DNA from: Actinomycetota bacterium
GTDB lineage: Bacteria; Actinomycetota; Coriobacteriia; Anaerosomatales; Anaerosomataceae
NCBI GenBank assembly: GCA_009773565.1
Contig: WSXY01000003.1
Span: forward strand, 62,001 to 126,000
Direction of reading: 5' to 3'
DNA length: 64,000 nucleotides
Under the pieces are notes generated by a model, which was not told the origin of the DNA, did not search any database, and was given only the letters and a program-made list of their open reading frames with translations. The translations under genes and the position numbers were made by a program. Of this stretch, positions 7,750 to 23,739 are shown one piece after another (positions within the stretch are counted from its first letter, which is position 1; each line of letters starts with the position of its first letter).

Positions 7750-8874
7750 CTACTCGGCGGCCGCAAGCCGCCCGGTAACGAGGTCACCCATCGCGCTGGT
7801 GCCGACGGTCTTCTGCGGCAACGTGCTCGCATCCGCGATGTCAGCGGTGCGCCATCCGTCGGCGAGAACGCCTTCGATCGCCGTGGAAAGCGCGTCGGCC
7901 GCCTCGTTCATCGAGAAGCTGTAGCGAAGCATCATCTCGACCGAGAGCAGCATCGCAAGCGGATTCGCGATGCCCTGACCGGCGATATCGGGCGCCGAAC
8001 CGTGGCTTGGCTCGTAGAGTGCGGTGCTGTCGCCAAGCGATGCGCTCGCGAGCATGCCGAGCGAACCGGTGAGCATGGACGCCTCGTCAGAGAGAATGTC
8101 GCCGAACATGTTCTCGGTCACGACGACGTCGAACTGGGCCGGCCGGCGGATGAGCTGCATGGCGGTGTTGTCGACGAGTTGGTCGAGAAGCTCGACGTCC
8201 GCGAACTCGGCGGCATGCAGACGGTGAACGACCTCGCGCCACAGACGGCTGCTCTCAAGCACGTTCGCCTTGTCGACTGAGTGAACCGTGCCGCCGCGGA
8301 GGCGCGCGGCCTCGAATGCGGTCCTCGCGATACGCTCAATCTCGTACTCGCGATACTCCATCGTGTCGTATGCGCGCATGCCGACGCCGCCGCCGGTCGC
8401 CGCGCCTTCGACGCCCGTCTCGCGCGCCCGCGCGCCAAAGTACAGGCCGCCGGTGAGTTCTCGCACGATGAGCATGTCGACGCCCTCGAGGAACTCGGGC
8501 TTGAGCGTGCTCGCATCCTTGAGCGCCTCGAAGATCTTGACGGGCCGCAGGTTCGCGTACAGACCGAGCGCCTTGCGGATGCCGAGAAGGCCCTGCTCGG
8601 GCCGCGGCTTCGCCGGGTCGGTCGTGTCCCACTTGGGACCACCGATGGCCGCCAGGAGCACCGCGTCGGCTGCGTGCGCCTTCGTGAGCGTCTCTTCGGG
8701 CAGCGGCGACCCGGTCGCATCGATAGCCGCACCGCCGAGAAGCGCCTCGGTGAACTCGAACGTCGCGCCGAAACGCTCGCCGATGGCGCCGAGAACCTTC
8801 ACGGCCTCGGCGGTGATCTCCGGACCGATGCCGTCGCCCGGAAGCAGGCATATGCGATAGGTTGTGGCGCTCAT
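7750..8874 (-). CDS. leuB: 3-isopropylmalate dehydrogenase
   Basis: A 374-residue NAD-dependent oxidative decarboxylase of leucine synthesis, also able to serve the citramalate route. The ATG at 8874 ([20 protein letters not shown]) has GGGAG 8 bases upstream; 36 extra codons upstream are not protein-like. IPMDH-specific features are [23 protein letters not shown] (rather than the RENTED of isocitrate dehydrogenase), [15 protein letters not shown] and [15 protein letters not shown]. The D-I dipeptide in the last motif indicates NAD preference. It heads leuB-ilvE-cimA and is divergent from the cytochrome genes starting at 9026. It is separated from leuD by 3.6 kb of electron-transfer genes. 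Confidence 0.95.
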
Positions 8875-9025
8875 GCGGGTAGCTCCCGTTCCTGGCCGGA
8901 GAGTATTCGGGATATTGTATCGCGGGCGGCAGGAGCACGCGAGAGCGTGTCCATTACGTGTGGTGGCGCTTCTGGTGTCCACCTGCTCAGCCGTCTATCA
9001 TTGGCGGGTATCACATCCTCGCTGA

Positions 9026-9799
9026 ATGGCTCGACCGAGACCTTCCAACCGAACGGATATCGCCCGCGTGTCGAAAGCGCCCCGACGCATACTCATTCCT
9101 GTGCTGGTGCTGGTCGCCGTCTTGGTGGCTATCGCGTCATTCGTCGGCTCCGCACCCGCAGTGTGCGCCTCCTGTCATGCCATGAAGCCGTATGCGGATG
9201 CTCAGGACTCCACCGCGCACAAGAACATCGACTGCTACGCATGTCACCTTCAGGCGGGCGCATGGGATTGGCCCGCATTCAAGCTCACCGAGGTCACGCG
9301 CATGTACCCGCGGGCGAAGGAAACGAGCCTGACCGGTCCGGCTTCACGTATCGCCACGGCACCGTGCCTCACGTGTCACGAGGATGTGCTTGCAGGCGCC
9401 GTCGTGAGTGGCGGCATCCGGATCAAGCACAGCTCATGCACCCCGGTCGACAGTTGCGACGGTTGCCACGCGGCATCTGCGCACGGCGAGACAATCCGCT
9501 GGACACGCCGGGCAATCATGGAAGAATGCGTCGACTGCCACGTCGAGCAGCACGCAGCACGTGAATGCAACACGTGTCACGGTGCACGCACGCAGGCGGA
9601 GCGACTTGCGAAGGGCGCCTGGAAGGCGACCCATGCTACAGACTGGAAGAGCACGCACGGGATGGGCGATCTTCGCTACTGCCGCACCTGCCATACCGTC
9701 GACGCCTGCATGAAGTGTCATCCGACGGGTGTTCCGTCGCCATCAACGACCGGCACGAGCACAGGTGCACCTACGATACCGGGCGGAGGCGACCAGTGA
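9026..9799 (+). CDS. Membrane-anchored octahaem c-type cytochrome (module B)
   Basis: A 257-residue protein with a short basic N-terminus, one membrane segment at about residues 22-43, and then eight CXXCH haem sites (CASCH, CYACH, CLTCH, CDGCH, CVDCH, CNTCH, CRTCH, CMKCH). It should face the cell exterior and relay electrons. It is a clear paralogue of the first two-thirds of the 12-haem protein at 14470-15432: both share a HSSC...SCDxCH...AHGE...VMEDC-type stretch and THGMG before haem seven. The C-terminal tail is rich in S, T, P and G. No Shine-Dalgarno precedes the ATG at 9026 and a TATCAT box lies 25-30 bases upstream; GTG at 9068 is an alternative start. It overlaps the next gene by 4 bases. 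Confidence 0.86.
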   Translation: MARPRPSNRTDIARVSKAPRRILIPVLVLVAVLVAIASFVGSAPAVCASCHAMKPYADAQDSTAHKNIDCYACHLQAGAWDWPAFKLTEVTRMYPRAKETSLTGPASRIATAPCLTCHEDVLAGAVVSGGIRIKHSSCTPVDSCDGCHAASAHGETIRWTRRAIMEECVDCHVEQHAARECNTCHGARTQAERLAKGAWKATHATDWKSTHGMGDLRYCRTCHTVDACMKCHPTGVPSPSTTGTSTGAPTIPGGGDQ

Positions 9800-10572
9800 G
9801 TCCGCAGTCAGTCATCGAGTCACTTCGCCAACTGGCCCAGAATCCAAACTCGAACCTGGCGGCCACGTCGCTCGGCTTTGCGATCATGGTCGTTGTGGTG
9901 CTCATCCTCATCCTGGTCGTCTTGATGGTATTTGCGCCACGCACGCGGAAGCCGTCCGCCAAGAGCAGCGCTCCCACCAGGGGCACTGACGATGACACCG
10001 GCGAACCCGCAGCGGACCAAGACCCCCGGGCCACGACATTCTTGCGACGACGCCGCACCGCGCTGCTGACGATTCTCGCGCTTATCGCCGTCGGAAGCGC
10101 TTACGTATCGAGCGGGACGAACGACTACTGCGCGCGTACGTGCCACTCGATGACCAACGCCGGGATCAGCTGGACCACGTCACCGCACGCGAATACCGCG
10201 TGCGTGCGTTGCCACGAGAGCTCGCCTGTCGACGCTGTCGCGACCCGCACGCGTCATGTCGTGGGCCAACTGAGAGGCGCCTCGACGTCGCCACGCCGCG
10301 CGGCGGTGTCAAGCCGCCGGTGCCTCGGATGTCATGGCGACATCCTCGACGGGACCATCACCTCCGCGCAGGGTATTCGCGTCGTCCACTCACACATCAT
10401 CGCGGCCGGTGCCGATTGCCTGCGCTGCCACGGGACGATAGGCCACTCAACGACAGCGGCCACGCGCCCGGGCACGATGAACGACTGCATGAGGTGTCAC
10501 GACGGCGAGAAGGCCCTCGGGGCGTGCTTCATCTGCCACGAGAATCGCTCTGCAAGAGCCGCGAGACCTTAG
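9796..10572 (+). CDS. Two-segment membrane multihaem cytochrome (module B)
   Basis: A 258-residue protein starting at a GTG that overlaps the upstream stop (GTGA), with GGAGG-like GGCGGAGG ahead. It has a membrane segment at about residues 22-45, a charged, T/D-rich linker, a second segment at about 85-103, and then haem sites: one CX3CH (CARTCH) followed by CVRCH, CLGCH, CLRCH, CMRCH and CFICH. The motif GTNDYCARTCH right after the second membrane span is mirrored by GTNQYCARVCH in the paralogue at 13178-14473. The arrangement (haem close to a membrane helix) recalls NapC/NrfH-type quinol-linked cytochromes, but that role is inference. The 3' end overlaps the convergent NHL gene by 4 bases. 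Confidence 0.82.
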   Translation: MSPQSVIESLRQLAQNPNSNLAATSLGFAIMVVVVLILILVVLMVFAPRTRKPSAKSSAPTRGTDDDTGEPAADQDPRATTFLRRRRTALLTILALIAVGSAYVSSGTNDYCARTCHSMTNAGISWTTSPHANTACVRCHESSPVDAVATRTRHVVGQLRGASTSPRRAAVSSRRCLGCHGDILDGTITSAQGIRVVHSHIIAAGADCLRCHGTIGHSTTAATRPGTMNDCMRCHDGEKALGACFICHENRSARAARP

Positions 10573-11750
10573 CGCTCTGAAGCGCGACGACGCGTGACGA
10601 AGAGAATCGCGAGCGCTGCCAGCAGCGCAGCAAGCGGTATCGCACAGACCCGGAAGGGACTCGAAAGCGCCCGCGAGGCAGCCTGGCCGGGTCCGCCACC
10701 GGAACCCTCGATTCGCACGATCTGCAAGCGATTGTTCGAAGTGTCCGCCACAACGAACCAGTCACGCTTCGCGTCATACGCAAGGCTCGAGGGATAGACG
10801 AACTGCCCGTCGCCCGTGCCCTCTTGCCCGAAGCTGTTCTCGATCGCGCCTGAAGTCGCGTTCATGACGAGAATGCTGAAGTTGAATGCATCGACAGCGA
10901 CAAGCCGCCCTGCAGCGTCCAGAACGACATCCTGCGGTAGGTCCAGCACGACGTTGCTGCCCTCGGTGATGGGTGCAGTCGCCTCAGCTGAGGAACTTGT
11001 CTCGGAAGCATTCTTCGGTGTCGCCCATAAGAGCGAACCCGCAGGATCGAAGGCCTTGATGCTCCGGTTGAGTGGATCGGCGACATAGATGCGCTCGGCG
11101 TCAGCCGTGATGCCGCCGGCCGGCTCGATGGCCGCACCGGTGCCGCGACCGCGCTTACCGGCCCGCGACTTCTCGATGCCGTCAAGTCCGAACTGGATGA
11201 CCTCGCCGCCACTACGCACGTACACGGTCTCGTCGAGCACCGTGATGCCCAGCGCCTGCGGCACCTTCCACTCCCGGACGAACGCAAATCGATCATCAAA
11301 TACGATGACCTTGCCGTTCTTGAAGTCCGAGATGTAGACGAAGCCGTCGGCGTCGACTGCCACGTCGGCCGGCCGCCCGATCTGGCCCTTGGCCGCTCCG
11401 CCGGCCCCCGTCTGGATGGGACCCCTGAATGTGCCGTCCGGATTGAACGCCAACACGCGTGCACGCTGCGGATCCGTCGCGTAGATTGTGCCGTTCGGTG
11501 CCACGGCGACGGCGGTGGGTCCGAGCAGCTGCTCGCCCGCGGAAGGGCCGTAGCCGTAGATGGAGCGCACCCAGGTCATGCCGCCGGCTGCGGCAGTCTG
11601 CTGGGGCAGCCCCGCGGGCACCAGAAACCGAATGAAGAAGTAGCTCACGCCACAAAGCACGAGCACGAGGATCACGAGGATCGCAACAAGGGCAGCGGTC
11701 CAGTTCTGGCCCATACCGCCGTCGTTCGAGGTCTCTATCGGTGTGCTCAC
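10569..11750 (-). CDS. Membrane-anchored NHL-repeat beta-propeller protein (module B)
   Basis: A 393-residue protein with an N-terminal membrane anchor (about residues 18-42), an extracytoplasmic NHL/six-bladed propeller (about 65-350) and a second hydrophobic helix near the C-terminus followed by basic residues. Propeller blades show the usual pattern VAVAPNGTIYATD, VAVDADGFVYISD, ITADAERIYVAD, VVLDAAGRLVAVD, LAYDAKRDWFVVAD, each followed by a hydrophobic strand. It is paralogous to the protein at 16887-18125: both have GGMTWVRSIYGYG or DGITWVRSLYAWG after the anchor and end in a single hydrophobic helix. It is cotranscribed with the TPR gene (1-base overlap). Function unknown; likely a scaffold or assembly factor for the cytochromes. 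Confidence 0.85.
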   Translation of the reverse strand: MSTPIETSNDGGMGQNWTAALVAILVILVLVLCGVSYFFIRFLVPAGLPQQTAAAGGMTWVRSIYGYGPSAGEQLLGPTAVAVAPNGTIYATDPQRARVLAFNPDGTFRGPIQTGAGGAAKGQIGRPADVAVDADGFVYISDFKNGKVIVFDDRFAFVREWKVPQALGITVLDETVYVRSGGEVIQFGLDGIEKSRAGKRGRGTGAAIEPAGGITADAERIYVADPLNRSIKAFDPAGSLLWATPKNASETSSSAEATAPITEGSNVVLDLPQDVVLDAAGRLVAVDAFNFSILVMNATSGAIENSFGQEGTGDGQFVYPSSLAYDAKRDWFVVADTSNNRLQIVRIEGSGGGPGQAASRALSSPFRVCAIPLAALLAALAILFVTRRRASER

Positions 11751-12502
11751 TACTCGCCCCCTACCTTCGCAAGGCCTTTCAGGGCCTCAGGCATGTCCGG
11801 TATGAAACGAAGTGCGGCATTGTAGTCCGCGCGCGCACCAGCCAGATCGCCGAGCGCCGCCTTCACGTCGGCTTGCTCGACAAGGACATCCGCCATTCGC
11901 GGATCGACTTTCAGGGCGATCGCATACTCCTCGAGTGCGGCCGCCCCCTCGCCTTGCTTCGCGAGGAGCCGCGCCTTGAAGATCGCCGCATCGGCAAGCT
12001 CAGAGTTCGACGCCACATAGGTGGCACCCTTTGCGCTTGCCGCCTTCACGCGCTCGTCGTAGTACTCGATCGCGCGCTTCTTGGCAGCCTCGTATGCCGC
12101 GATGGCCTCGGCCATCTTGCCCTGCTTCTCCAGCATATAGGCGTCTGCCATGTAGAAAGCAGGCAGATTCGCCACCCTCTTGCCGTTCGCGCTCGCACTC
12201 CGCGCATCCGCATAACGATCGGCCGCGACGTATGCGTACGTGAGGTCAACCCAGCTCTGCGCGACCTTCGGCTGTTCTTGCGTGGCAGTCTCGGCCGTTG
12301 CAACAGCGCGCTCAACGACCGTACGCGGCGCCTTCGAGACCTCCAGGCCATACAGCACGATCGTGGCGACAACCGCGAGAATCACAATGATGGTTGCGAG
12401 AACCGCTGTGAGCATGAACTGCTGATCAACGACGAACCTGCGCGACCGGGGCTGTGCTTCCGGCTCCGCGCTAGGAATGGGCTCCGCAATTTCCTCGCTC
12501 AA
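11750..12502 (-). CDS. Membrane-anchored TPR protein (module B)
   Basis: A 250-residue protein with a cytoplasmic N-terminus of about 28 residues, a membrane helix at about 30-52 and an extracytoplasmic helical domain built of tetratricopeptide-like pairs. The C-terminus AALEEYAIALKVDPRMADV then ARADYNAALRFIPDMPEAL is a clear TPR signature. Its paralogue at 18179-18943 ends with the near-identical ARADFEAALKFIPDFQPAL. It starts 33 bases after leuD in the same direction and overlaps the NHL gene by one base, so translation is probably coupled. The likely role is a protein-interaction partner for cytochrome assembly; inference from context. Confidence 0.82.
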   Translation of the reverse strand: MSEEIAEPIPSAEPEAQPRSRRFVVDQQFMLTAVLATIIVILAVVATIVLYGLEVSKAPRTVVERAVATAETATQEQPKVAQSWVDLTYAYVAADRYADARSASANGKRVANLPAFYMADAYMLEKQGKMAEAIAAYEAAKKRAIEYYDERVKAASAKGATYVASNSELADAAIFKARLLAKQGEGAAALEEYAIALKVDPRMADVLVEQADVKAALGDLAGARADYNAALRFIPDMPEALKGLAKVGGE

Positions 12503-12535
12503 GAAGTGCTCCTCTGAGAATCCGACAGTCGTTGG

Positions 12536-13030
12536 CTAGCGAAGAAGCTTCTGCTTGACCGATTCGACAAGTCCACCCTGCTCGATCATGTCCTTGATGA
12601 ACGGGGGGAACGGCTGGGCCTGAAAGGACGCACCTGTCGTCTCGTTCGTGATCGTGCCGGTATCGGCGTCGACCGAGAGGAGGTCACCATCGCTGATAGC
12701 GTCGACAGCCTCCGGGGATTCCATGATGGGCAGCCCTGTATTGATCGCGTTGCGATAGAAGATGCGCGCGAAGGACTTTGCGATGATGACACTGACGCCC
12801 GCAGCCTTGATCGAGATGGGCGCGTGCTCCCGTGACGACCCGCAGCCGAAGTTCTCCTCGGCGACGAGGATGTCACCCGGCTGGACCTTGCCGACGAAAC
12901 CGGCATCAAGATCCTCCATGCAGTGCTTCGCAAGCTCTTCAGGAATGCTCGTATTGAGATAGCGAGCCGGGATGATGACATCTGTGTCGATATCGCGACC
13001 GTACTTGTGGGTCGTGCCTGAGAACTTCAC
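12536..13030 (-). CDS. leuD: 3-isopropylmalate dehydratase small subunit
   Basis: A 164-residue swivelling-domain subunit that pairs with LeuC to isomerise 2- to 3-isopropylmalate (and probably citramalate to 3-methylmalate). Motifs: YGRDIDTDVIIPARYLNTS (the YLNT stretch is in the substrate-specificity loop), ENFGCGSSREHAPISIKAAG and IAKSFARIFYRNAINTGLP. The start is GTG 13030, with GGGAGG 9 bases upstream. Its natural partner leuC lies 7.9 kb away, beyond cytochrome module A, and a TPR gene follows it. It therefore needs its own promoter or readthrough from module A. Confidence 0.93.
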   Translation of the reverse strand: MKFSGTTHKYGRDIDTDVIIPARYLNTSIPEELAKHCMEDLDAGFVGKVQPGDILVAEENFGCGSSREHAPISIKAAGVSVIIAKSFARIFYRNAINTGLPIMESPEAVDAISDGDLLSVDADTGTITNETTGASFQAQPFPPFIKDMIEQGGLVESVKQKLLR

Positions 13031-13163
13031 AGTGTGCAGCCTCCCTGGTGCGTGCGAATAACGCGTACTTGGGCACGAATCCTAGCATATCGAGAGCGAA
13101 GAACGCGCGGGGACACCGCCGACTGGGCGTCGTGCAAGAATCAAGCGTCTACTCCCAATCTAC

Positions 13164-13177
13164 AGCCCCCGGGGGCT
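13164..13177. terminator. GC palindrome abutting the end of cytochrome module A
   Basis: AGCCCCCGGGGGCT is a perfect 14-base palindrome immediately after the stop codon of the gene ending at 13178. It could fold as a short hairpin ending the module A transcript before leuD. There is no T-run behind it on either strand, so termination is uncertain. Confidence 0.3.
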
Positions 13178-14473
13178 CTAGAAGTTGTGGCAGAGACTGC
13201 ACATGGGTTCGGTTCGATCAGTCCGCCCGGCATGACACGCGCATCCGGAATCACGCGGCGCCGCTCGGTGCTCGAGCCTCCAATTGCCAGCGTGACCGGG
13301 GAATCCGGTGTGGCAACCCGAGGAACACCAATTCCTCTCGTGACACTTGTAGCAGGACTCTTTGCGTTCCCAGGCAGCATCGCGCGCGTGTGTTCCTTTG
13401 ATGAAAGCAGCACTGTGCGGAAGGCGCAGCCCGTGGCAGCTATCGCAATCGCGCTTCTCATCGTGGCAACCCCCGCACGAGATATCCCCGATTTCCGTCA
13501 TCGGGTACAGGACGTCTCCAGAGCCCAGGGTTGCTGTCGACTCCTTGGTCTCTGACAGCAGCGAGGAGTCATACGGATCACCGACGTGACACGTGGTGCA
13601 TGAGGTCGGGGCATTCTGGCCGCCATGACATGCGAGACACGAAGACATCGAGTAGGTACGGCGTTTCGAATGACCGACGGTTGAGTGACACGAAACGCAT
13701 GTCATACCGGCTGCAGACGGCTGCGAGTGGGACATCCGGATTCCCCGTGGACTCTGGGTTGTCGAGCGGATGCCCTTCTCGTGACAACGGATGCATGACG
13801 CAGCGGTAACCACCGCTCGACCATCGGGACGTCCGCCAGCAACGTACGTCGCTGCCATATCTACGCGCCCAAACACCCCCGTGACAATGCCCGCAATACC
13901 CGGCTCTTCATGACACGAGACACAGCGCGAGTGATCAAGATCAACCGCCGCATTTACCTTCGACTGCCCTGCATGACACACGCGGGCGCAGTACTGATTG
14001 GTCCCGGTGACAAGGTAGCCAGAAACAAGGGCCATCAGAATCAGCGCAGGCGTGGCGATGCTGACTAGAACAGACCTGGATATGAACCAGCGTCCCGTAA
14101 ACATCTCTTTGTCACTACCCAAACGCCCAGTGCCATCGACCGGCTCAACATCACTTTCGCTGTCTGGACCCAAAGCCAGATCTACCGCACTTCCGTCATC
14201 AATTGCCCCGACGGTGGCAGTATCCGCGACGAGCGGGACCATATCCGACTCATTGTCATCATCAGCCGGAGTATCAGCATCATTGACCCGGTAGCGACGT
14301 ATCTTGACCACGCGGCGCTTACCGGGTGTTAGAACGAGCAGCAGGCCGAGCACGGCTATCAGCGCAACGAGAAAGATCGCACTCATGATGAGGGCTGACA
14401 CCGTCGGGTTTGCCGCAGGATTCCGAATCGCCAGCGTCACCGCATCCCAAAGTATGCGAACATACGCCATCAT
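13178..14473 (-). CDS. Two-segment membrane multihaem cytochrome with non-standard haem sites (module A)
   Basis: A 431-residue enlarged paralogue of the 9796-10572 protein. Order: membrane segment (about 25-48), acidic linker, second segment (about 133-155), then CARVCH (CX3CH), CVSCH, CIRCH, CVSCH, CLACH, CTTCH, CGGCH, CDSCH, CYKCH, CSSGCH (CX3CH), a CACH stretch that lacks one spacer residue, and CSLCH at the extreme C-terminus. That gives nine canonical sites, two CX3CH and one degenerate. The second half (about residue 300 on) has no counterpart in the module B protein. Its ATG overlaps the upstream 12-haem gene by 4 bases (ATGA), so the two are translationally coupled. Probably extracytoplasmic electron relay anchored near the quinone pool; inference. 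Confidence 0.85.
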   Translation of the reverse strand: MMAYVRILWDAVTLAIRNPAANPTVSALIMSAIFLVALIAVLGLLLVLTPGKRRVVKIRRYRVNDADTPADDDNESDMVPLVADTATVGAIDDGSAVDLALGPDSESDVEPVDGTGRLGSDKEMFTGRWFISRSVLVSIATPALILMALVSGYLVTGTNQYCARVCHAGQSKVNAAVDLDHSRCVSCHEEPGIAGIVTGVFGRVDMAATYVAGGRPDGRAVVTAASCIRCHEKGIRSTTQSPRGIRMSHSQPSAAGMTCVSCHSTVGHSKRRTYSMSSCLACHGGQNAPTSCTTCHVGDPYDSSLLSETKESTATLGSGDVLYPMTEIGDISCGGCHDEKRDCDSCHGLRLPHSAAFIKGTHARDAAWERKESCYKCHERNWCSSGCHTGFPGHAGNWRLEHRAAPRDSGCACHAGRTDRTEPMCSLCHNF

Positions 14474-15432
14474 TTGGAGTCACCCTTTACTCGCCCGGGA
14501 AAGGATGGTCCATTCTTGCCACCGGGACCTCCAGGGTGTATGTGACGGGCGTGGCACCGCTCACATGTCTGCTTCGTATGACAACGCGTACACCGGGGGT
14601 CGCTCGTGGATGACGTTTCCCCGGAGTGCTTTGCCAGATACCCCGGAATGTGCGGCATCACGATCCCGTGACACGAGTCACAGAACGCCCGGGACTTGTG
14701 GCACTTCTCGCACGATGCGCGATCGGCTACCGCCGCAGGCCCATGCTCGGAACCGAACGTCACAGGATGTGGGATTGAAACCTTATGGCAGCGTTTGCAG
14801 TAGTCGTCCGGGTGACACGTGACACACGAATCAAGCTTGCCCATTCCGTGAGTCTGACGCCACAGCGGCCCATGTGTGACCTGCCATGGACCGGCAGCAA
14901 GCCGGGCGGTCTTCAACGCGCCTTCGTGACACGCGTCGCACTCGAGCACGGCCTTCTCTCGCTGATGACATGCCGTGCAATCCTCCATGACAGCCTGGCG
15001 CTTCCATCTGACTTCTTCGCCATGAGCCGTGGTGGAGTGGCAAGAATCGCACGACGAGCCAAGCGCACAGGACGAGTGCAGTATCCGGATGCCCGTCCTG
15101 CCGGGAGTACGCTCATTCGATCCGTCATGGCATGCATTGCATCCGACAGTTGACGTCTCGCGAACCGGTCCCTGAGGTTTTCCGCCCAACAGAGCGTTGG
15201 GATACATCCGAAGTAGCTCGTTTGCCTTGAACGACACCAACGACGCCCCCGGAGCATGACATTTGTAGCAGCCGACAGACGCGTGGCTCGACTTGTTCTG
15301 AGCGAGAACGACTTCGCTGTGACAGAGCCTGCAGGCTACTGCAGACGAGCCCCCCGTAAGAACCCCCACCAGTAACGTCATGAGAATCCCGCCGATAGCG
15401 AGAGACAGACCCTGACGACGTCTCAACTTCAT
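14470..15432 (-). CDS. Membrane-anchored dodecahaem c-type cytochrome (module A)
   Basis: A 320-residue protein with one N-terminal membrane helix (about residues 9-31) and twelve CXXCH sites: CRLCH, CYKCH, CNACH, CDSCH, CTACH, CDACH, CVTCH, CKRCH, CEKCH, CDSCH, CTRCH, CERCH. The ATG at 15432 has AAGGAG 10 bases upstream; an earlier in-frame start at 15528 would cross the terminator hairpin of the upstream gene. The first eight haems align with the octahaem protein at 9026-9799; four more are added at the C-terminus, ending in a P/G-rich tail. Likely a membrane-tethered relay in the envelope. Confidence 0.87.
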   Translation of the reverse strand: MKLRRRQGLSLAIGGILMTLLVGVLTGGSSAVACRLCHSEVVLAQNKSSHASVGCYKCHAPGASLVSFKANELLRMYPNALLGGKPQGPVRETSTVGCNACHDGSNERTPGRTGIRILHSSCALGSSCDSCHSTTAHGEEVRWKRQAVMEDCTACHQREKAVLECDACHEGALKTARLAAGPWQVTHGPLWRQTHGMGKLDSCVTCHPDDYCKRCHKVSIPHPVTFGSEHGPAAVADRASCEKCHKSRAFCDSCHGIVMPHIPGYLAKHSGETSSTSDPRCTRCHTKQTCERCHARHIHPGGPGGKNGPSFPGRVKGDSK

Positions 15433-15520
15433 AAAACGGGGGCTCCTTAATGATGGCGAAAAACTGCCAGGGACGCTCATGTACGATAGCAAATCCGCTG
15501 CCGGACGGCGAGTTGAATCT

Positions 15521-15559
15521 GAAAACACAGGGCGACCCCCGTTTCCGGGAGCCGCCCTG
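15521..15559 (-). terminator. Rho-independent terminator after the hexahaem cytochrome
   Basis: On the minus strand a CAGGGCG...CGCCCTG outer stem (15528-15534 with 15553-15559) and an inner CCCG/CGGG stem around a short loop are followed by TGTTTTC. It lies 35 bases downstream of the hexahaem cytochrome stop, so this gene can be transcribed as a single-gene unit or at higher level than the genes after it. Confidence 0.75.
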
Positions 15560-15593
15560 ATCGTGCTGCGAACTACGCTAGGTCAGTATCACT

Positions 15594-16625
15594 CTAGTAG
15601 GTGATATTGATACCAGCGTCCTGTGCGGAGTTGATGTGGCACTTGAGGCACAGACCATCCACTGCGGTAGCGCTCGTGGATGAAGCCACGGCCGACGCAG
15701 TCGCGTAGGCACCAGACTTCTGGAACCGGTAGTAACCATTGGTGTAGTGCGGGAACGAGTCGAACGTAACACCGGTCTGGTCAACGCCACCGGCGTCATG
15801 GCACTTGCGGCACGTGTCAGAATCGACCCATGCGGCCTGAACGCTGATGCTGTCGCCAGCGGCCGAGAAGCCACCAACTTCGGCGAGCTTCATCGGGTGG
15901 CCCTTGTACTCGCTGCCAGCGATGTAGCCGCTGCCGTCGTAGTAGCCGGGACCGCCAGTGATGGTCGACTCGGAGGCATCCGTATACTCTGCGTGGCACT
16001 GGCTGCAGAACGCAACCTGCTGCAGGTACTTGTTAGCCGACGAAACGGCTGCAGCCTGGCCCGCGAAGACCGCGGTGATGGCGGCGTTGCCGCCCGCTGC
16101 GCCAATAACTTCCGGCTGAATCGGACGATCCGCACGGACGCGCAGGATCTTGGTCACGTTGCCGCCCTGGAAGGTGCCAGCACCATGAACTGCGTGGCAG
16201 CCAGCGCAAGAGGCGCTCGAAGAGTTGTGAGCAAAGCTGTTGCTGACCGTGTAATTAGCAGCGATGCCACCGTAAAGCTGAACGCCACCGACTGCCGTCT
16301 GGATGTGGCAGTAGTTGCAGGCGTTGCCAACAGACGAACGGAGAAGCATCTCGGTTGGCTCCGAACCAGAGGTCCAGGCATTGGCGCCAGTGCCAGCGGT
16401 GTCAGGCCACGTGAAGGCCGACGTTGCGGCATAGTGAACCGAGTGGCACACTGCGCACTTCGACGTGCCAGTGGTGTAGCCAGCGTGCGGAGTAGGAACA
16501 GCGGCATTCGCGCCAGTTGCGCTCCACTCGATGTAGATATTGCCGTTCGGCCGGGCCATGGCGACGCCTGCGAAGGAAAGGGCGAGGGCGACTGCCAGGG
16601 CCACGACGATGAAGGTCTTCTTCAT
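15594..16625 (-). CDS. Secreted hexahaem c-type cytochrome, OmcS-like nanowire candidate
   Basis: A 343-residue exported protein. The signal peptide MKKTFIVVALAVALALS ends at about AMA|R (residue 24), with no further membrane segment or wall anchor. Haem sites begin at C57, C103, C140, C207, C272 and C326. There are exactly six other histidines (H47, H64, H133, H147, H243, H293), just enough for bis-histidine ligation of all six haems. CAVCHSVH and CAGCHAVHG, the MLL stretch just before haem two, KGHP between haems four and five, and a last haem at the extreme C-terminus match the order I recall for OmcS of Geobacter sulfurreducens. Two ribosome sites precede it: AAGGAG 9 bases before ATG 16625 and GGAAGGAGG before an in-frame ATG at 16667. 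Own promoter and terminator suggest high expression. Role as a filament subunit is inference. Confidence 0.88.
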   Translation of the reverse strand: MKKTFIVVALAVALALSFAGVAMARPNGNIYIEWSATGANAAVPTPHAGYTTGTSKCAVCHSVHYAATSAFTWPDTAGTGANAWTSGSEPTEMLLRSSVGNACNYCHIQTAVGGVQLYGGIAANYTVSNSFAHNSSSASCAGCHAVHGAGTFQGGNVTKILRVRADRPIQPEVIGAAGGNAAITAVFAGQAAAVSSANKYLQQVAFCSQCHAEYTDASESTITGGPGYYDGSGYIAGSEYKGHPMKLAEVGGFSAAGDSISVQAAWVDSDTCRKCHDAGGVDQTGVTFDSFPHYTNGYYRFQKSGAYATASAVASSTSATAVDGLCLKCHINSAQDAGINITY

Positions 16626-16798
16626 GGTGTGTGACTCCTTATTGGATGAGTAAGGGTTTCTTGTCATGTTAATTCACTCACCTCCTTCCGCGACAGAATA
16701 TCGTTGCGAAGCGCGTGCTTCGATCAACCCGGATGATGTGATGACTTCTATGGCTTTCAAATTATCATTATCTGATGTTGATTGCTATCTCAAAGACC

Positions 16799-16826
16799 AG
16801 TTAACAATTGCTAATTATTCTGTCAA
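16799..16826 (-). promoter_or_regulatory. Putative promoter of the hexahaem cytochrome
   Basis: A perfect minus-strand TTGACA (16821-16826) is followed after 16 bases by TTAACT (16799-16804), a weak -10 box. The surrounding stretch (16740-16830) is markedly AT-rich compared with the rest of the window. The predicted transcript would have a leader of about 165 bases ahead of ATG 16625. Confidence 0.45.
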
Positions 16827-16834
16827 GCACATAC

Positions 16835-16870
16835 CGTGCCGACCCGCTAGTGTAGCGAGCCATCGGCACG
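16835..16870 (-). terminator. Hairpin between the NHL gene and the hexahaem cytochrome
   Basis: CGTGCCGA and TCGGCACG (16835-16842, 16863-16870) form a perfect outer stem, with an inner CGCT/AGCG pair. It starts 17 bases after the NHL stop and directly precedes the TTGACA of the cytochrome promoter. There is no clear T-run, so it may be a weak terminator or an RNA-processing/stabilising hairpin. Confidence 0.4.
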
Positions 16871-16886
16871 ACTACTGTCGAGGTTC

Positions 16887-18125
16887 CTACGCGCCCGGAA
16901 CAGCAGCGTCGGCCTGCTGCCGTCGCCGACGGGCCACCCGAAGGACAATCGCAGCCACGAGCAGTGCAAGCGGAATTCCGCACAGCCAGAGCGGACGATC
17001 GGTCGCGGCAGCAAACGTACGACTCACAGCGTTACCACCGGTGCCGGAGAGGCGGATCAGTTGGACACGGTTGTTGGCCGTGTCAGCAACGGCAAGAAGG
17101 TCCCTGGCTGCATCGTATGAGATTCCTGTGGGGTAGCCGAAGCTACCGTCCTGCGACCCATACTCCCCGTAGCGCGCCACAACCTGCCCCTTGCGCGTCG
17201 GATCCAGTACGAGGATTTGAAACTCGAACGGATCTACGACGAGCAAACGGCCAGCTCCATCGATTGTCATACCTGCGGGCAGCTGCATGCTTTGTGAAAC
17301 ACCATCAACCGTCTGGGTCGCCGAGGTAGCCGTTAGGTCGGCTCGGTCCGCCACGGCTCGAATCCATAGCAGTTTGCCTTCTTGACTGTAGGCTTTGACC
17401 CGGTTGTTCTGCGTATCGGAGACGTAGACCGTGCCGTCGTCCGCAATCGCAACTCCATGCGGAAGATCAACATCGTCATCACCGGTGCCGCGCTGGCTCC
17501 ATTTGTTGATGAGATTGCCTTCTGTATCGAATACTCCGATTCCGTAAGCGGCAGCAACCGCAACGCGACCGTTTCTTACGTCGATCTCCATCGGCAACTG
17601 AACGCCCCACTCACGAATGATCTCGCCTTCGGGCGAGATGACCATGACTGCGTTCTTGCCGAAGTCGCAAACATATATATCGCCGTTTTCATCTACCGCA
17701 AGGCCCTCAAGCGAGACGAACTTACCGGCCTCTTGTCCTAGATCCCTCGTGATCACCCTTGACACACGTCCGTCTGGGTTGAAACCAACGACCCATCGCT
17801 TATTGGTGACGACCCAGATTGTGCCATCGGGTGCAATCGCAACATCAACGGGCGCGACCATAGCCTGATCGGCCGTGCTGCCCCAGGCGTACAAAGAGCG
17901 TACCCAGGTTATTCCATCAGGCAATGCAGCCTTCTCGGGAGCGCCAACGGGCTCAACAAGTCCCGCTACGACCCACGCAACTGCCGCTAGCAGCAGCACG
18001 AGAAGTAGGAGTACGACGGCAAGAGCCATTCGACTTCTCCGATTGTCGACATATTCAACAACCGTCTCCGTATAGCCCTGCTGCTCCGAATCGCTCAATG
18101 ATTCGCTCTTTCGGTCTATCGTCAT
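16887..18125 (-). CDS. Membrane-anchored NHL-repeat beta-propeller protein (module A)
   Basis: A 412-residue paralogue of the protein at 10569-11750. N-terminal acidic tail, membrane helix (about residues 33-55), then an extracytoplasmic propeller with blade motifs VAIAPDGTIWVVT, LAVDENGDIYVCD, VAIADDGTVYVSD, MTIDGAGRLLVVD and ISYDAARDLLAVAD, and a terminal hydrophobic helix followed by an R-rich stretch. Start ATG 18125 has GAGG 8 bases upstream; a TTG at 18149 in the same frame lacks a ribosome site. It follows the TPR gene by 53 bases and precedes the hexahaem cytochrome. NHL proteins also neighbour nanowire cytochrome genes in Geobacter as far as I recall, which supports an assembly role; inference. 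Confidence 0.85.
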   Translation of the reverse strand: MTIDRKSESLSDSEQQGYTETVVEYVDNRRSRMALAVVLLLLVLLLAAVAWVVAGLVEPVGAPEKAALPDGITWVRSLYAWGSTADQAMVAPVDVAIAPDGTIWVVTNKRWVVGFNPDGRVSRVITRDLGQEAGKFVSLEGLAVDENGDIYVCDFGKNAVMVISPEGEIIREWGVQLPMEIDVRNGRVAVAAAYGIGVFDTEGNLINKWSQRGTGDDDVDLPHGVAIADDGTVYVSDTQNNRVKAYSQEGKLLWIRAVADRADLTATSATQTVDGVSQSMQLPAGMTIDGAGRLLVVDPFEFQILVLDPTRKGQVVARYGEYGSQDGSFGYPTGISYDAARDLLAVADTANNRVQLIRLSGTGGNAVSRTFAAATDRPLWLCGIPLALLVAAIVLRVARRRRQQADAAVPGA

Positions 18126-18178
18126 GGATTGATCCTCATCGGTTCGCAAAAGGATAGGAAGACTGCATGACTGCGCGA

Positions 18179-18943
18179 CTATTTGTCCTTAAGCTGCTTC
18201 AAGCCGTCCAGGGCAGGCTGAAAATCTGGAATGAACTTGAGGGCTGCTTCAAAGTCAGCCCGAGCCTTGTCCTTCTCGCCATGCTCCGCATAAGCCTGGG
18301 CACGCAATACAAACAGATCTGCACCTTGAGGACTGAAAGTCAAAGCTGTAGAAAGACCCTCTATAGCCTTGTCCCAGTCCTTGAGCGCGCCACGAGACCT
18401 CGCTCCGAACACAAGAATGTCAACAACGGCCTGCGAATCCATATCTACGACGGACGACTTAATACCCTTGCCCGTCATCTCCTTGACCCACGCCTCCCTG
18501 GCGCCAAGGTCGGACTTGTAAGCGGCGTCGGCAAGCTTCGCCGCTCCCGCATAGTCACTATCAGCGAAAGCCATGGCGACTTCGGCCGCTAGAACCTCCG
18601 AGAGTTCTACGCCCTTGAGGGATTCCTTGGCCAGCTTGAGTTGCTTCTTTGCAGCGCCTGCCTGCCCGGAGGCGACAAGAGTATCGATATACTCACGCTG
18701 CGCTCTTCCAGAGCCTGGATTGGTCCGAACGGTGCTCTCAAGTACAACCAACCGAGCCTCAACTGCAGTCCTCGGAGTTGTCGGATTCAGGATGCCTACG
18801 GAGAGCAAGTAGATGATTCCGACAAGTGCAATGACTACCAGGAGCGCTATTGCAAACTTCATCCACCAAATCAGTGAATCATCTCCGCCAGAAACGGTGA
18901 CGGTGTCATAATCGGTTTCCACTACGCTAGCATTTTCACGCAT
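18179..18943 (-). CDS. Membrane-anchored TPR protein (module A)
   Basis: A 254-residue protein with a short acidic N-terminus, one membrane helix (about residues 28-52) and an extracytoplasmic helical-repeat domain. Clear TPR stretches are WDKAIEGLSTALTFSPQGAD, then AQAYAEHGEKDKARADFEAA. Paralogue of the protein at 11750-12502 with the same topology and similar last repeat. It is the first gene of the minus-strand module A. A possible promoter (TTGCTT, 16 bases, TATTCC) lies in the 108-base gap to the divergent ligase-like gene. Confidence 0.8.
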   Translation of the reverse strand: MRENASVVETDYDTVTVSGGDDSLIWWMKFAIALLVVIALVGIIYLLSVGILNPTTPRTAVEARLVVLESTVRTNPGSGRAQREYIDTLVASGQAGAAKKQLKLAKESLKGVELSEVLAAEVAMAFADSDYAGAAKLADAAYKSDLGAREAWVKEMTGKGIKSSVVDMDSQAVVDILVFGARSRGALKDWDKAIEGLSTALTFSPQGADLFVLRAQAYAEHGEKDKARADFEAALKFIPDFQPALDGLKQLKDK

Positions 18944-19051
18944 GAGGCGAAGACCCCTTCTTTAGTGAAGAGAGAAACGGAATAGGCGACTGCCAGTCCA
19001 AAGCAAAACGCATACCGAACCCGCAACTATCACTCGAAAGGCTACCACACT

Positions 19052-20827
19052 ATGGCCGTGCTGCCAGGCCCACTTGCCAAGTACTCACAGCCCATTGGTC
19101 TGGCCCTGATCTTGACGGCCACGATGCTGGTTCCCGCCGGCGCCAGCGCGGCAATCACACTCTCTGTGGCGCTTGGTAGCGCTGGAATCGCAAGTCTTCT
19201 TGCCGCTTGGACACTAGCGAACACCTCCCTGCCCCTGCGGCATCGGGTCGCGCTTGGGCTCACTGGATGCGCCGGGCTCGTCCTCGCCTATGCCACATTG
19301 AGGGCCGACAGCCCCCTCATTTCTCTCTACGGTATGACCGGTCAACATGCGGGGCTCGCGCTTTGGATTGGGGCCGCCGCATGGCTGTTGGCAAGCATGC
19401 TTGCCGGAACTCGCACCTCCCTGCGCGCGCTCATCATCGTGACAGCCATGAGTACCGGCTTCCTCAGCGCCCTCGCGGTACTCCAGCAGATTCAGGGGCG
19501 CGTACCGCTCTGGGGTCACACAGCCGGGGCCTTCGAGAACTCGCTCTCGCTTGCTCAACTCCTTGTGTTGGGAATTGCCTCCGGCATAGCTTGGCTCGTG
19601 TCTGCCCGCTCAACAGCCTCTCGGCTCCTCGCGGCTAGCGCCCTTGCATTCACAGCCGCGGGACTTCTCGTCGCACAGTCGAGAGCCGCATTCCTGGGCA
19701 TCGCAGTCGGCGTGCTCTTTACGCTCCTGACACTGGGCGCGAGAACTAGCCTGTCGCGGCGCCTGCTCGCATGGGGCACTGTCACCGCCGCCGCGCTGAT
19801 AACAGCTGCCATTGCCATCGCATCTTCCCTGCGGGTCGACGCTAGCATGCTGACCACGCTGAACACACTTGGAACGGACCGACTGACAATATGGAGGTCT
19901 GCGACAGCGGCGTTTTTGCAGCACCCCATTTTTGGACGGGGACTTGAACAGTTTAGCTGTTGGGTCACGTGGGGGCTCAGCGACGGAGGCCTGTCGTACG
20001 GTGGCGCCTACGACCCCCATAACATGGTGTTCGCACTGCTGGTCGGAGGAGGGTTGGCTGGGTGCACGTTGGCGCTTCTCGCGTTTGGCGCGCTACTTGA
20101 CGCCGCACTCACTTCGTACGCTGAGGCTGGCTCCCCTGTACTGATTGCGGTACTCATCGGCGGCGTGGTAGCAATGGGCACCGCAGCGATGTTCGCCTGG
20201 ATTAGCCCGTCGGCTTTCATCACTGCGGCAATTCTGCTCGGCACGGTTATCGCAGTCGGTACAAATCGCGCGGTTTCCGAAAACAGAGTACCTACGCGTG
20301 GCCTGAAACTCATCCTCAGTTTGAGCGCAGCACTCGCTTTCGCACTTTGTATGGGCTCCCTGACACCGCTGCGCGCAGACATAGATTTCGCACGACTAAC
20401 CCGCACGAACTCCGACGAAACAGCGGCTCTTATGCAGCTATCCTCAGCATGGCCCGATCCGGCATTTGCTGTGAAAGCGAGTGCCACAGGAACCGGCGAC
20501 CCTCGCAGGTTCGCCGTTGTGCCGACGGTCACGCCGCGTTTCAACCGTGATCGATTCTGGCACGTCGACCTGGTCATCCAACGGCTTGTGCTCGATCAGG
20601 CCGTGTCTGTCTCGAGTAATCGCGATACGTGGAGCGACTTCCGTGAATCGGTCGAGGCCGGACGCCAAGCCGATCCCTCTAGCGGGGTATGGGATGTCCT
20701 CGGGACCATGGAGGCCCAGCGCCTAGGCAAGAAGAGTGAAGCGAGAGCTTACGCTCGACGCGCACTTGGCTATCGCCTTGGAGCGCAGGAACGAGCATCG
20801 ATGGTCGAGCAAGCCGGAGTTCGCTAG
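19052..20827 (+). CDS. O-antigen ligase/polymerase-like polytopic membrane protein (Wzy_C family)
   Basis: A 591-residue protein with about 11-12 membrane segments in residues 10-440 and a soluble C-terminal region with TPR-like helices at its end. The family signature is visible: RAAFLGIAVG in the middle, then a large external loop with HPIFGRGLEQFSCW and DPHNMVFALLVGGG, whose histidine is typical of the Wzy_C/WaaL active-site region. Such enzymes transfer or polymerise lipid-linked glycans, or O-glycosylate proteins outside the membrane. It is divergent from module A. AAAGG lies about 9 bases before the ATG. Substrate unknown; glycosylation of an envelope protein or of surface polymer are both possible. 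Confidence 0.8.
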   Translation: MAVLPGPLAKYSQPIGLALILTATMLVPAGASAAITLSVALGSAGIASLLAAWTLANTSLPLRHRVALGLTGCAGLVLAYATLRADSPLISLYGMTGQHAGLALWIGAAAWLLASMLAGTRTSLRALIIVTAMSTGFLSALAVLQQIQGRVPLWGHTAGAFENSLSLAQLLVLGIASGIAWLVSARSTASRLLAASALAFTAAGLLVAQSRAAFLGIAVGVLFTLLTLGARTSLSRRLLAWGTVTAAALITAAIAIASSLRVDASMLTTLNTLGTDRLTIWRSATAAFLQHPIFGRGLEQFSCWVTWGLSDGGLSYGGAYDPHNMVFALLVGGGLAGCTLALLAFGALLDAALTSYAEAGSPVLIAVLIGGVVAMGTAAMFAWISPSAFITAAILLGTVIAVGTNRAVSENRVPTRGLKLILSLSAALAFALCMGSLTPLRADIDFARLTRTNSDETAALMQLSSAWPDPAFAVKASATGTGDPRRFAVVPTVTPRFNRDRFWHVDLVIQRLVLDQAVSVSSNRDTWSDFRESVEAGRQADPSSGVWDVLGTMEAQRLGKKSEARAYARRALGYRLGAQERASMVEQAGVR

Positions 20828-20880
20828 GGTCTAGCAAGCACCACTGATGTCATGCCGACCGTTGCGCAACCGTCTTTTGG

Positions 20881-22149
20881 CTACGCCAGGTCCTCCGGGA
20901 GCGCGATATGCCCTGCAACCGCAGTCGCGGCGGCAACCGCCGGTGATGCGAGGTACACCTCGCTGGTGGGATCGCCCATGCGGCCGACGAAGTTGCGGTT
21001 GGTGGTCGCAACCGCGCGCTCCCCTGCTGCGAGGATGCCCATATGGCCGCCAAGGCACGGCCCGCACGTCGGGGTGGAGATCGCCGCGCCCGCGTCGAGG
21101 AAGATGTCGAACAGCCCCTCGTGCATAGCCTCGCGATAGATCTGCTGCGTCGCTGGCAGGATGATGAGGCGCACGTTCTCGTGCACCTTCCGACCCTTCA
21201 GGATCTCGCCGGCTACCCGCAAGTCTTCGAGACGGCCGTTCGTGCAGGAACCGATGATGACCTGGTCGACCCAGATGTCGCGGGCGTCCTCCGCCGCGCG
21301 AGTGTTGCTCGGCAGATGCGGGAACGAGACCGTCGGCTTGATACTCGACGCGTCGATCTCGTAGACATGCGCGTACTCGGCATCTGCGTCCGAGAAGTAC
21401 TCGGTCCACGGACGCTCGGTACGACCGTCCATGTACGCGCGGGTGATGTCATCGACGGCGATGATGCCGCTCTTGCCGCCGGCCTCGATCGCCATGTTGC
21501 AGATTGTCATGCGGCCTTCGATGCTGAGCGCATCGATGGTGTCACCGGTGAACTCCATCGCCTGGTAGAGCGCGCCGTCGACGCCGATCATGCCGATGAT
21601 GTGCAGGATGATGTCCTTCGCGCTCACCCACGGGCCAAGCTTGCCACTCACGTTGAACTTGAGGCTGGACGGCACCTTGAACCAGGCCTCGCCCGTGGCC
21701 ATCCCAACAGCTGCGTCTGTGGAGCCGACGCCGGTCGCGAACGCGCCGAGCGCACCGTACGTGCACGTGTGGCTGTCGGCGCCGATGATGACGTCACCGG
21801 CACCCACGACGCCTTGCTCCGGCAGCAGCGCATGCTCGACGCCCATGCAGCCAATCTCGTAGTAGTGCGAGATGCCCTGCTCGCGCACGAACTCGCGCAT
21901 CATCTTCGCCTGCTCGGCACTCTTGATGTCTTTGTTCGGCGTGTAGTGGTCGGGCACAAGCGCGATCTTCTCCGCGTCCCAGACCGTATCGACGCCGATC
22001 TTGCGGAACTCCTTGATCGCGATAGGGGCAGTCACGTCGTTCGCGAGGACAAGATCAAGCGCGCAGTTGATGAGCTGTCCGGGCTCGACCTCGTCCAGCC
22101 CGGCGTGCGCGGCAAGGATCTTCTCGGTGATAGTCATGGATCGAGTCAT
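20881..22149 (-). CDS. leuC: 3-isopropylmalate dehydratase large subunit
   Basis: A 422-residue aconitase-superfamily subunit carrying a [4Fe-4S] cluster. Cluster ligands are the cysteine of [13 protein letters not shown] and the CxxC of [10 protein letters not shown]. Other landmarks are [20 protein letters not shown] and [13 protein letters not shown]. The length is that of the short, two-subunit LeuC type. It follows leuA with a 3-base gap and has GAGGAG 9 bases before ATG 22149. The partner leuD is at 12536-13030, across cytochrome module A. It probably also isomerises citramalate for isoleucine synthesis. Confidence 0.94.
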
Positions 22150-22152
22150 GGG

Positions 22153-23697
22153 CTAGATCTCCTCGTGTGCTGCGGGTATCTGCGAGACAAGCAAGCGGTT
22201 GAGCGCGTTCGTATACGCCTTGGCTGAAGCTACGATGATATCGGAGTGCGCGCCCCGGCCGGTGAAGATCCTGCCGTCAGCGCTCTTAACGCGGATGGTG
22301 ACCTCGCCAAGAGCGTCAATACCTCGTGTGACGGCCTCGACGCGGAACTCGGTCAGGTCGTTCTCGACGTCGACGATGCGGTTGATCGCCTTGTAGACGG
22401 CGTCGACCGGACCGGTGCCGTGGCTCGAATCGATAAGATGCTCGCCCTCTTGCGTGACGAGCTCCACGGTCGCAGTCGGGATTCCCGGCTCGCCGCTCGT
22501 GAAGTGCACCTGTGCGAGGTGATAGACCTCGTTCACGGTCCGCTCACTCTCGCCGACAAGCGCCTCGAGGTCTTCGTCGAAGACTTCCTTCTTCTTGTCG
22601 GCAAGGTCGAGGAATGCCACGTGAACGCGCTCGAACTCCTCGTCCGGCAGGTTGTAGCCAAGCTCCTCGAGCCGGTGCTTGAGCGCGTGACGACCGCTTC
22701 GTGCCGTGAGCACGATCGAGGAGCCACCAAGGCCCACCTCGACCGGGTCGATGATCTCGTATGTGGAGCGCTCCTTGAGGACACCGTCCTGGTGAATGCC
22801 CGAGGAGTGCGCGAACGCGTTCGCTCCAACGATCGCCTTATTCGGCTGGACGCGGATGCCCGTGATGCTGGAGACCAGGCGCGAGGTGCGCGTGATCTCC
22901 CGCGTGTGGATGCCGGTCGTGACGCCGAAGATGTCCGGCCGCTGGTGAAGCGCCATCGCAACTTCTTCAAGCGCGGTGTTGCCCGCCCGCTCGCCGATAC
23001 CGTTCACGGTGCATTCGATCTGCCGCGCGCCCGCCTTCACGCCCGCAAGCGCGTTCGCGGTCGCCATGCCGAGGTCGTTGTGGCAGTGCACCGAGATGAC
23101 CGCGTTCTCAATCCCCTTCACGTGTTCTTTAAGGCCGCCGATGAGCGCGCCGAAGGCCTCCGGGTACGCGTAGCCGGTCGTGTCGGGAATGTTCACGACC
23201 GTCGCCCCTGCGGCGATGGCCGCCTCGATCATGCGATAGAGGAACGCCGGCTCGGCGCGTCCGGCATCCTCGGCGTAGAACTCGACGTCTCCCACAAACG
23301 AACGCGCCAGCTTGACCGCCGCGACCGCACGTTCGATCGCCTCGTCGCCGCTGATGCGAAGCTTGTCGCGCAGGTGACTTTCGGAGACGCCGATGCCCGT
23401 GTGGATTCTCGGTCGCTTCGCGGTTGCGAGCGCGTCGGCGGCCACTTCGATGTCCTTCGCGATTGCGCGCGAGAGCGCGCACACGACTGCAGCGTCGCCG
23501 ACCTCAGCGCCGATGCGCCTGACGCTCTCGAAGTCGCCGGGGCTCGAAATCGGGAAGCCAGCCTCGATGACGTCGACTCCGAGCCGCACAAGCTGGCGGG
23601 CGATCTCGAGCTTCTCCTCGGCGTTCATGCTCGCGCCGGGAGACTGCTCGCCATCGCGAAGCGTCGTGTCGAATATGGCGACTCTGTCGATGCTCAT
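22153..23697 (-). CDS. leuA: 2-isopropylmalate synthase
   Basis: A 514-residue enzyme condensing acetyl-CoA with 2-oxoisovalerate, the committed step of leucine synthesis. Start ATG 23697 ([20 protein letters not shown]) has GGAGG 5 bases upstream; in-frame TTG/ATG codons lie up to 15 bases earlier. The TIM barrel shows the metal-site [18 protein letters not shown] and [16 protein letters not shown]; then [15 protein letters not shown]. The C-terminal regulatory domain (about residues 385-510) is present, so leucine feedback is likely. It lies between serA and leuC in the T-box-led operon. Confidence 0.95.
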
Positions 23698-23739
23698 GGC
23701 TTCCTCCATCAAAGCCGACGCTCATGCGCCGGCCGGGTG

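Follow-up and report, generated by a model that had tools for sequence, protein, structure and literature searches.

The window is the whole 64,000-nucleotide stretch of DNA analysed here and belongs to an uncultured-type actinobacterium that has no outer membrane. Positions 7750-23712 hold electron-transfer genes set within leucine biosynthesis genes (leuB, leuD, leuC and leuA), as was likewise observed in several other genera. The features discussed here, among them the gene for a hexahaem cytochrome which we call HEXA, are as follows:

9026-10572, forward strand: 8-haem and 6-haem NrfH-like cytochromes that are paralogous to the 12-/11-haem pair and have no hexahaem partner
10569-12502, reverse strand: second NHL and TPR pair
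13178-14473, reverse strand: 11-haem cytochrome (nine CXXCH and two longer motifs) with two membrane segments
14470-15432, reverse strand: 12-haem cytochrome with a membrane segment at its N-terminus; probably begins at 15432, behind an AAGGAG site; adjacency to HEXA conserved
15528-15559, reverse strand: intrinsic-terminator-like hairpin directly behind HEXA
15597-16625, reverse strand: HEXA, 343 residues, Sec signal peptide at residues 1-24
15594-16667, reverse strand: longer alternative reading of HEXA from an upstream in-frame ATG, 357 residues, with a stronger ribosome site
16887-18149, reverse strand: NHL-repeat beta-propeller with a membrane segment at both ends
18179-18943, reverse strand: TPR protein with a single membrane segment at the N-terminus
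19052-20827, forward strand: Wzy_C O-antigen-ligase-like membrane protein, found near the module in several relatives

Six CXXCH motifs are located in the HEXA open reading frame (15594-16625, reverse strand) at residues 57, 103, 140, 207, 272 and 326, together with exactly six other histidines at positions 47, 64, 133, 147, 243 and 293. The signal peptide is predicted to be cleaved at GVAMA|RP, and the N-terminal stretch is the single hydrophobic segment of the protein; no second segment or other anchor was found. A sequence-only reading of this DNA had described an exported, unanchored protein with six CXXCH sites and six extra histidines in a Gram-positive-type genome, and each of these points was borne out. 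The source genome is considered to be of monoderm type because Omp85 was not found in it, and it encodes ResB for c-type cytochrome assembly. The ligand order is H[h1]H[h2]H[h3]H[h4]H[h5]H[h6], where one conserved histidine precedes each motif and none follows the sixth. At the sequence level, every haem interval has an invariant histidine and all haems are therefore potentially bis-His, so that an open catalytic site is not implied.

Tandem ribosome sites were observed in front of HEXA: GGAGGTG precedes the ATG at 16667, and AAGGAG that at 16625, which is the annotated start. The dual in-frame start recurs in most HEXA relatives, and in nearly all of the module-type ones that were examined. 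In the window (16625-16690) and in the orthologues, the layout consists of a GGAGGTG-type site and a start codon located 8-17 codons ahead of a second site and an MKK start, while the leader between the two starts is variable in sequence. We also considered a prepilin-like leader on account of the conserved K-E or K-G ahead of MKK; this was rejected as it is these very codons that form the second ribosome site. Directly behind HEXA, the hairpin forms 14 G+C-rich base pairs with a T-rich tail, and under a strict pattern, applied to 20 relatives plus the window, such a terminator was detected in only seven. The terminator and the dual ribosome sites are consistent with a high output of HEXA and thus lend support to the earlier suggestion of a highly expressed gene with tandem ribosome sites and a strong terminator. 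The proposal of its own TTGACA-type promoter stood only in part: the TTGACA hexamer is present upstream of HEXA (16826-16821, reverse strand), but a consensus promoter scan, which listed other candidates matching 9 of 12 positions, gave it no convincing -10 partner.

The HEXA family was found in 43 of the 69 genomes of the order by searches of relatives and GTDB contigs, and the named records that carry it are mostly Coriobacteriia/Anaerosomatales MAGs. A sample of 296 genomes from the phylum gave seven matches, of which four belong to the same family as the window and three to other classes. The 45 domains aligned are 29 to 48% identical to the window protein, and the haem-binding cysteines and histidines, both proximal and distal, were observed to be invariant across them; the 29 full-length relatives keep all of these residues except for H133 in one. 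As judged from these alignments, the conservation of the ligands is far beyond chance. The loops differ by tens to more than 100 residues, and in some relatives haem 5 is bound through CX3CH. Nearly all of the 45 sequences end in a G-[VIA]-[GNS]-x-x-[FYW]-COOH motif (15597-15614 in the window), the last residue being Y, F or W in 44. In several relatives, the HEXA domain is C-terminal within a larger protein, behind FG-GAP repeats (L091:6363-8930) or behind Ig-like and c7-type multihaem regions (L097:11643-15431 and L113:6811-9228), and these N-terminally fused forms also leave the aromatic motif free. Such fusions to adhesin-like domains could serve as tips or anchors. Other multihaem proteins were also noticed. 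The source genome encodes at least five further proteins of 340-400 residues (C8, C12, C16, C18 and C25; L158-L163) that share the N-terminal three-haem module and are other candidate extracellular conductors, while related genomes encode giant 25-haem and 19-haem proteins (L123:4971-8834 and L085:12253-15360).

HEXA belongs to a conserved gene module of the Anaerosomatales, TPR-NHL-HEXA-12-haem-11-haem. In 27 of 40 loci, the gene immediately upstream of HEXA encodes the NHL protein. The 12-haem and 11-haem genes, which encode membrane-anchored, cytochrome c7-like proteins with weak NapC/NrfH similarity, follow HEXA in about 15 of the 40 and face it in about seven; leu genes flank the module in about 11, often as leuA-leuC before it and leuD-leuB after it. 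In Desulfovibrio ferrophilus and Geoalkalibacter, NHL proteins have likewise been reported to adjoin extracellular cytochromes, in the latter with an OmcE homologue (PMC9769857, PMC12016550). In Geobacter, OmcS and OmcE are glycosylated (PMC9473688), and the O-antigen-ligase-like protein (19052-20827) could by analogy modify secreted cytochromes.

Evidence for expression comes from the related actinobacterium EMTCatB1 which, together with a methanogen, dominates a methane-producing cathode (PMC7943316). Five of its multihaem genes, including 1d0125, were within the top 10% of transcripts on the working cathode (PMC7943316). Counting direct-strand genes from a V-ATPase marker places 1d0125 at the HEXA trio (148-151 kb), with a count that is off by about three genes, and no other multihaem open reading frames were found in the first 172 kb of EMTCatB1. 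By this count, 1d0125 would be one of the three cytochromes of the trio, and HEXA, which fits best, is the most likely of them.

In Pfam, HEXA residues 47-147 match MtrC/MtrF domain II/IV (PF22113, 46 bits against a cut-off of 30) and the other parts match Paired_CXXCH; the former was found in 25 of 29 relatives and the latter in all of them. OmcS itself matches Paired_CXXCH and falls just below the MtrC/F cut-off. The decahaem arrangement and split-barrel domains of MtrC/MtrF were not detected in HEXA. Haems 1-3 resemble modules of MtrA and OcwA and none of 80 ligand-preserving shuffles scored as well, a control that is somewhat favourable to these two proteins since their segments were chosen for having matched earlier. 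This resemblance argues for HEXA as a secreted carrier or cell-surface relay, monomeric or oligomeric and non-polymerising, with a role like that of Smh/OmhA of Carboxydothermus; secreted non-polymer cytochromes are reported in this Gram-positive iron reducer (PMC7829351). The exact C-terminal motif and the strong apparent expression would however be unneeded for a simple shuttle, and we regard such a role as a serious prospect that falls a little short of probable. The OcwA-like module would also suit a terminal reductase with catalytic haems, but six invariant distal histidines, one per haem, leave no haem ligand-free and make a reductase very unlikely.

HEXA might instead be a nanowire subunit of the OmcS/OmcE type, in which the N-terminal H64 or H47 would ligate a haem of the next subunit to give an unbroken haem chain. 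The ligand order is that of OmcS, and the sequence-only reading was right in this respect; the homology that it had implied was not supported. HHalign gave an E-value of 6e-7 against OmcS, but the alignment was out of register and ligand-preserving shuffles scored as high in 23 of 120 and 20 of 80 cases, so that this match was rejected as motif-driven. The CXXCHxxH...LL...CXXCH order that had suggested OmcS is also present in MtrA and OcwA. A profile search of the PDB returned OmcS with an E-value of only 0.03, and phmmer of HEXA against the PDB gave nothing. HEXA was modelled twice with AlphaFold, from alignments of 29 and 45 sequences and with no haem in the models, and the model was only fair (pLDDT 71). 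The haem 2-6 core is fairly confident in both models (mostly 70-92) whereas confidence is lowest in the N-terminal arm (haem 1, H47 and H64), with block means of 42-55 in the second. Foldseek and VIA-align searches with the two models found no fold match in the PDB, known nanowires included. Missing sequence similarity to OmcS does not settle the question, as OmcS and OmcE share none themselves (PMC9473688); the nanowire cytochromes, these two included, are also reported not to find each other in Foldseek (PMC9473688). A strongly conserved arm that is poorly modelled beside a confident core is what one would expect of packing against a neighbour, although its weak confidence may simply stem from a shallow alignment, and the free C-terminal aromatic motif also favours this reading. 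Taken together, a nanowire subunit of this type is possible but rather doubtful.

The reading we favour, and hold to be probable, is that HEXA is a secreted conductor with six bis-His c-haems and the outermost part of an extracellular electron-transfer module of monoderm Anaerosomatales. The haem sites and their conservation, the secretion signal, the gene module and, in a relative, the expression of one of its cytochromes are shown, and it is very likely that HEXA carries electrons outside the cell. Electrons would pass from the quinol pool to the membrane-anchored 11- and 12-haem cytochromes, from these to numerous HEXA molecules beyond the membrane, and then to a mineral, an electrode or a partner cell, with the flow presumably reversed on cathodes. 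The NHL and TPR proteins are probably scaffolds or assembly guides. HEXA may also chain head to tail, and the conserved haem-1 arm and the C-terminal tail (G-V-G-x-x-[FY]) are candidates for the contacts, but a homopolymer or filament seems to us rather less probable than not. It is unlikely, if conceivable, that a monoderm actinobacterial order builds its own HEXA nanowire, with FG-GAP, Ig-like and extra-multihaem variants as tips or anchors, evolved from MtrA/OcwA-like modules independently of OmcS. How electrons pass through the thick wall of monoderms is poorly known, and a conserved module of five genes that includes a secreted hexahaem conductor provides a concrete test case, also in an actinobacterium dominating an electromethanogenic cathode. 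If HEXA does polymerise, this would suggest that cytochrome nanowires arose independently once more.

Among known systems, OmhA and Smh of Carboxydothermus ferrireducens, a Gram-positive iron reducer, are likened to HEXA by description as multihaem proteins that are secreted (PMC7829351); their reported gene context differs. OcwA of Thermincola potens (PDB 6i5b) and MtrA (6r2q) share with HEXA the three-haem module CXXCHxxH, LL, CXXCH, CXXCH but contain nine and ten haems respectively against six. OcwA has catalytic haems. Haems of this type, which have no distal ligand, are absent from HEXA as each interval has its histidine, and HEXA also lacks the porin in which MtrA sits. The MtrC/OmcA type requires ten haems and an outer membrane, whereas HEXA has six in a genome without Omp85. 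OmcZ has eight haems and an extended first motif, while all six CXXCH motifs of HEXA are normal, and the 12-haem neighbour shows a distal histidine pattern unlike that of HEXA. OmcS of Geobacter sulfurreducens, the one nanowire cytochrome compared in full (with a sequence identical to PDB 6ef8), fits the ligand scheme but has surplus histidines in two intervals. Both proteins have six c-haems, are secreted and poor in secondary structure and carry the sixth haem near the C-terminus; they differ in mature length (319 residues for HEXA against 407), in host, HEXA's being monoderm, in partner genes and in the C-terminal motif. The parallel between HEXA and OmcS thus appears to hold for the ligand logic and not for ancestry.
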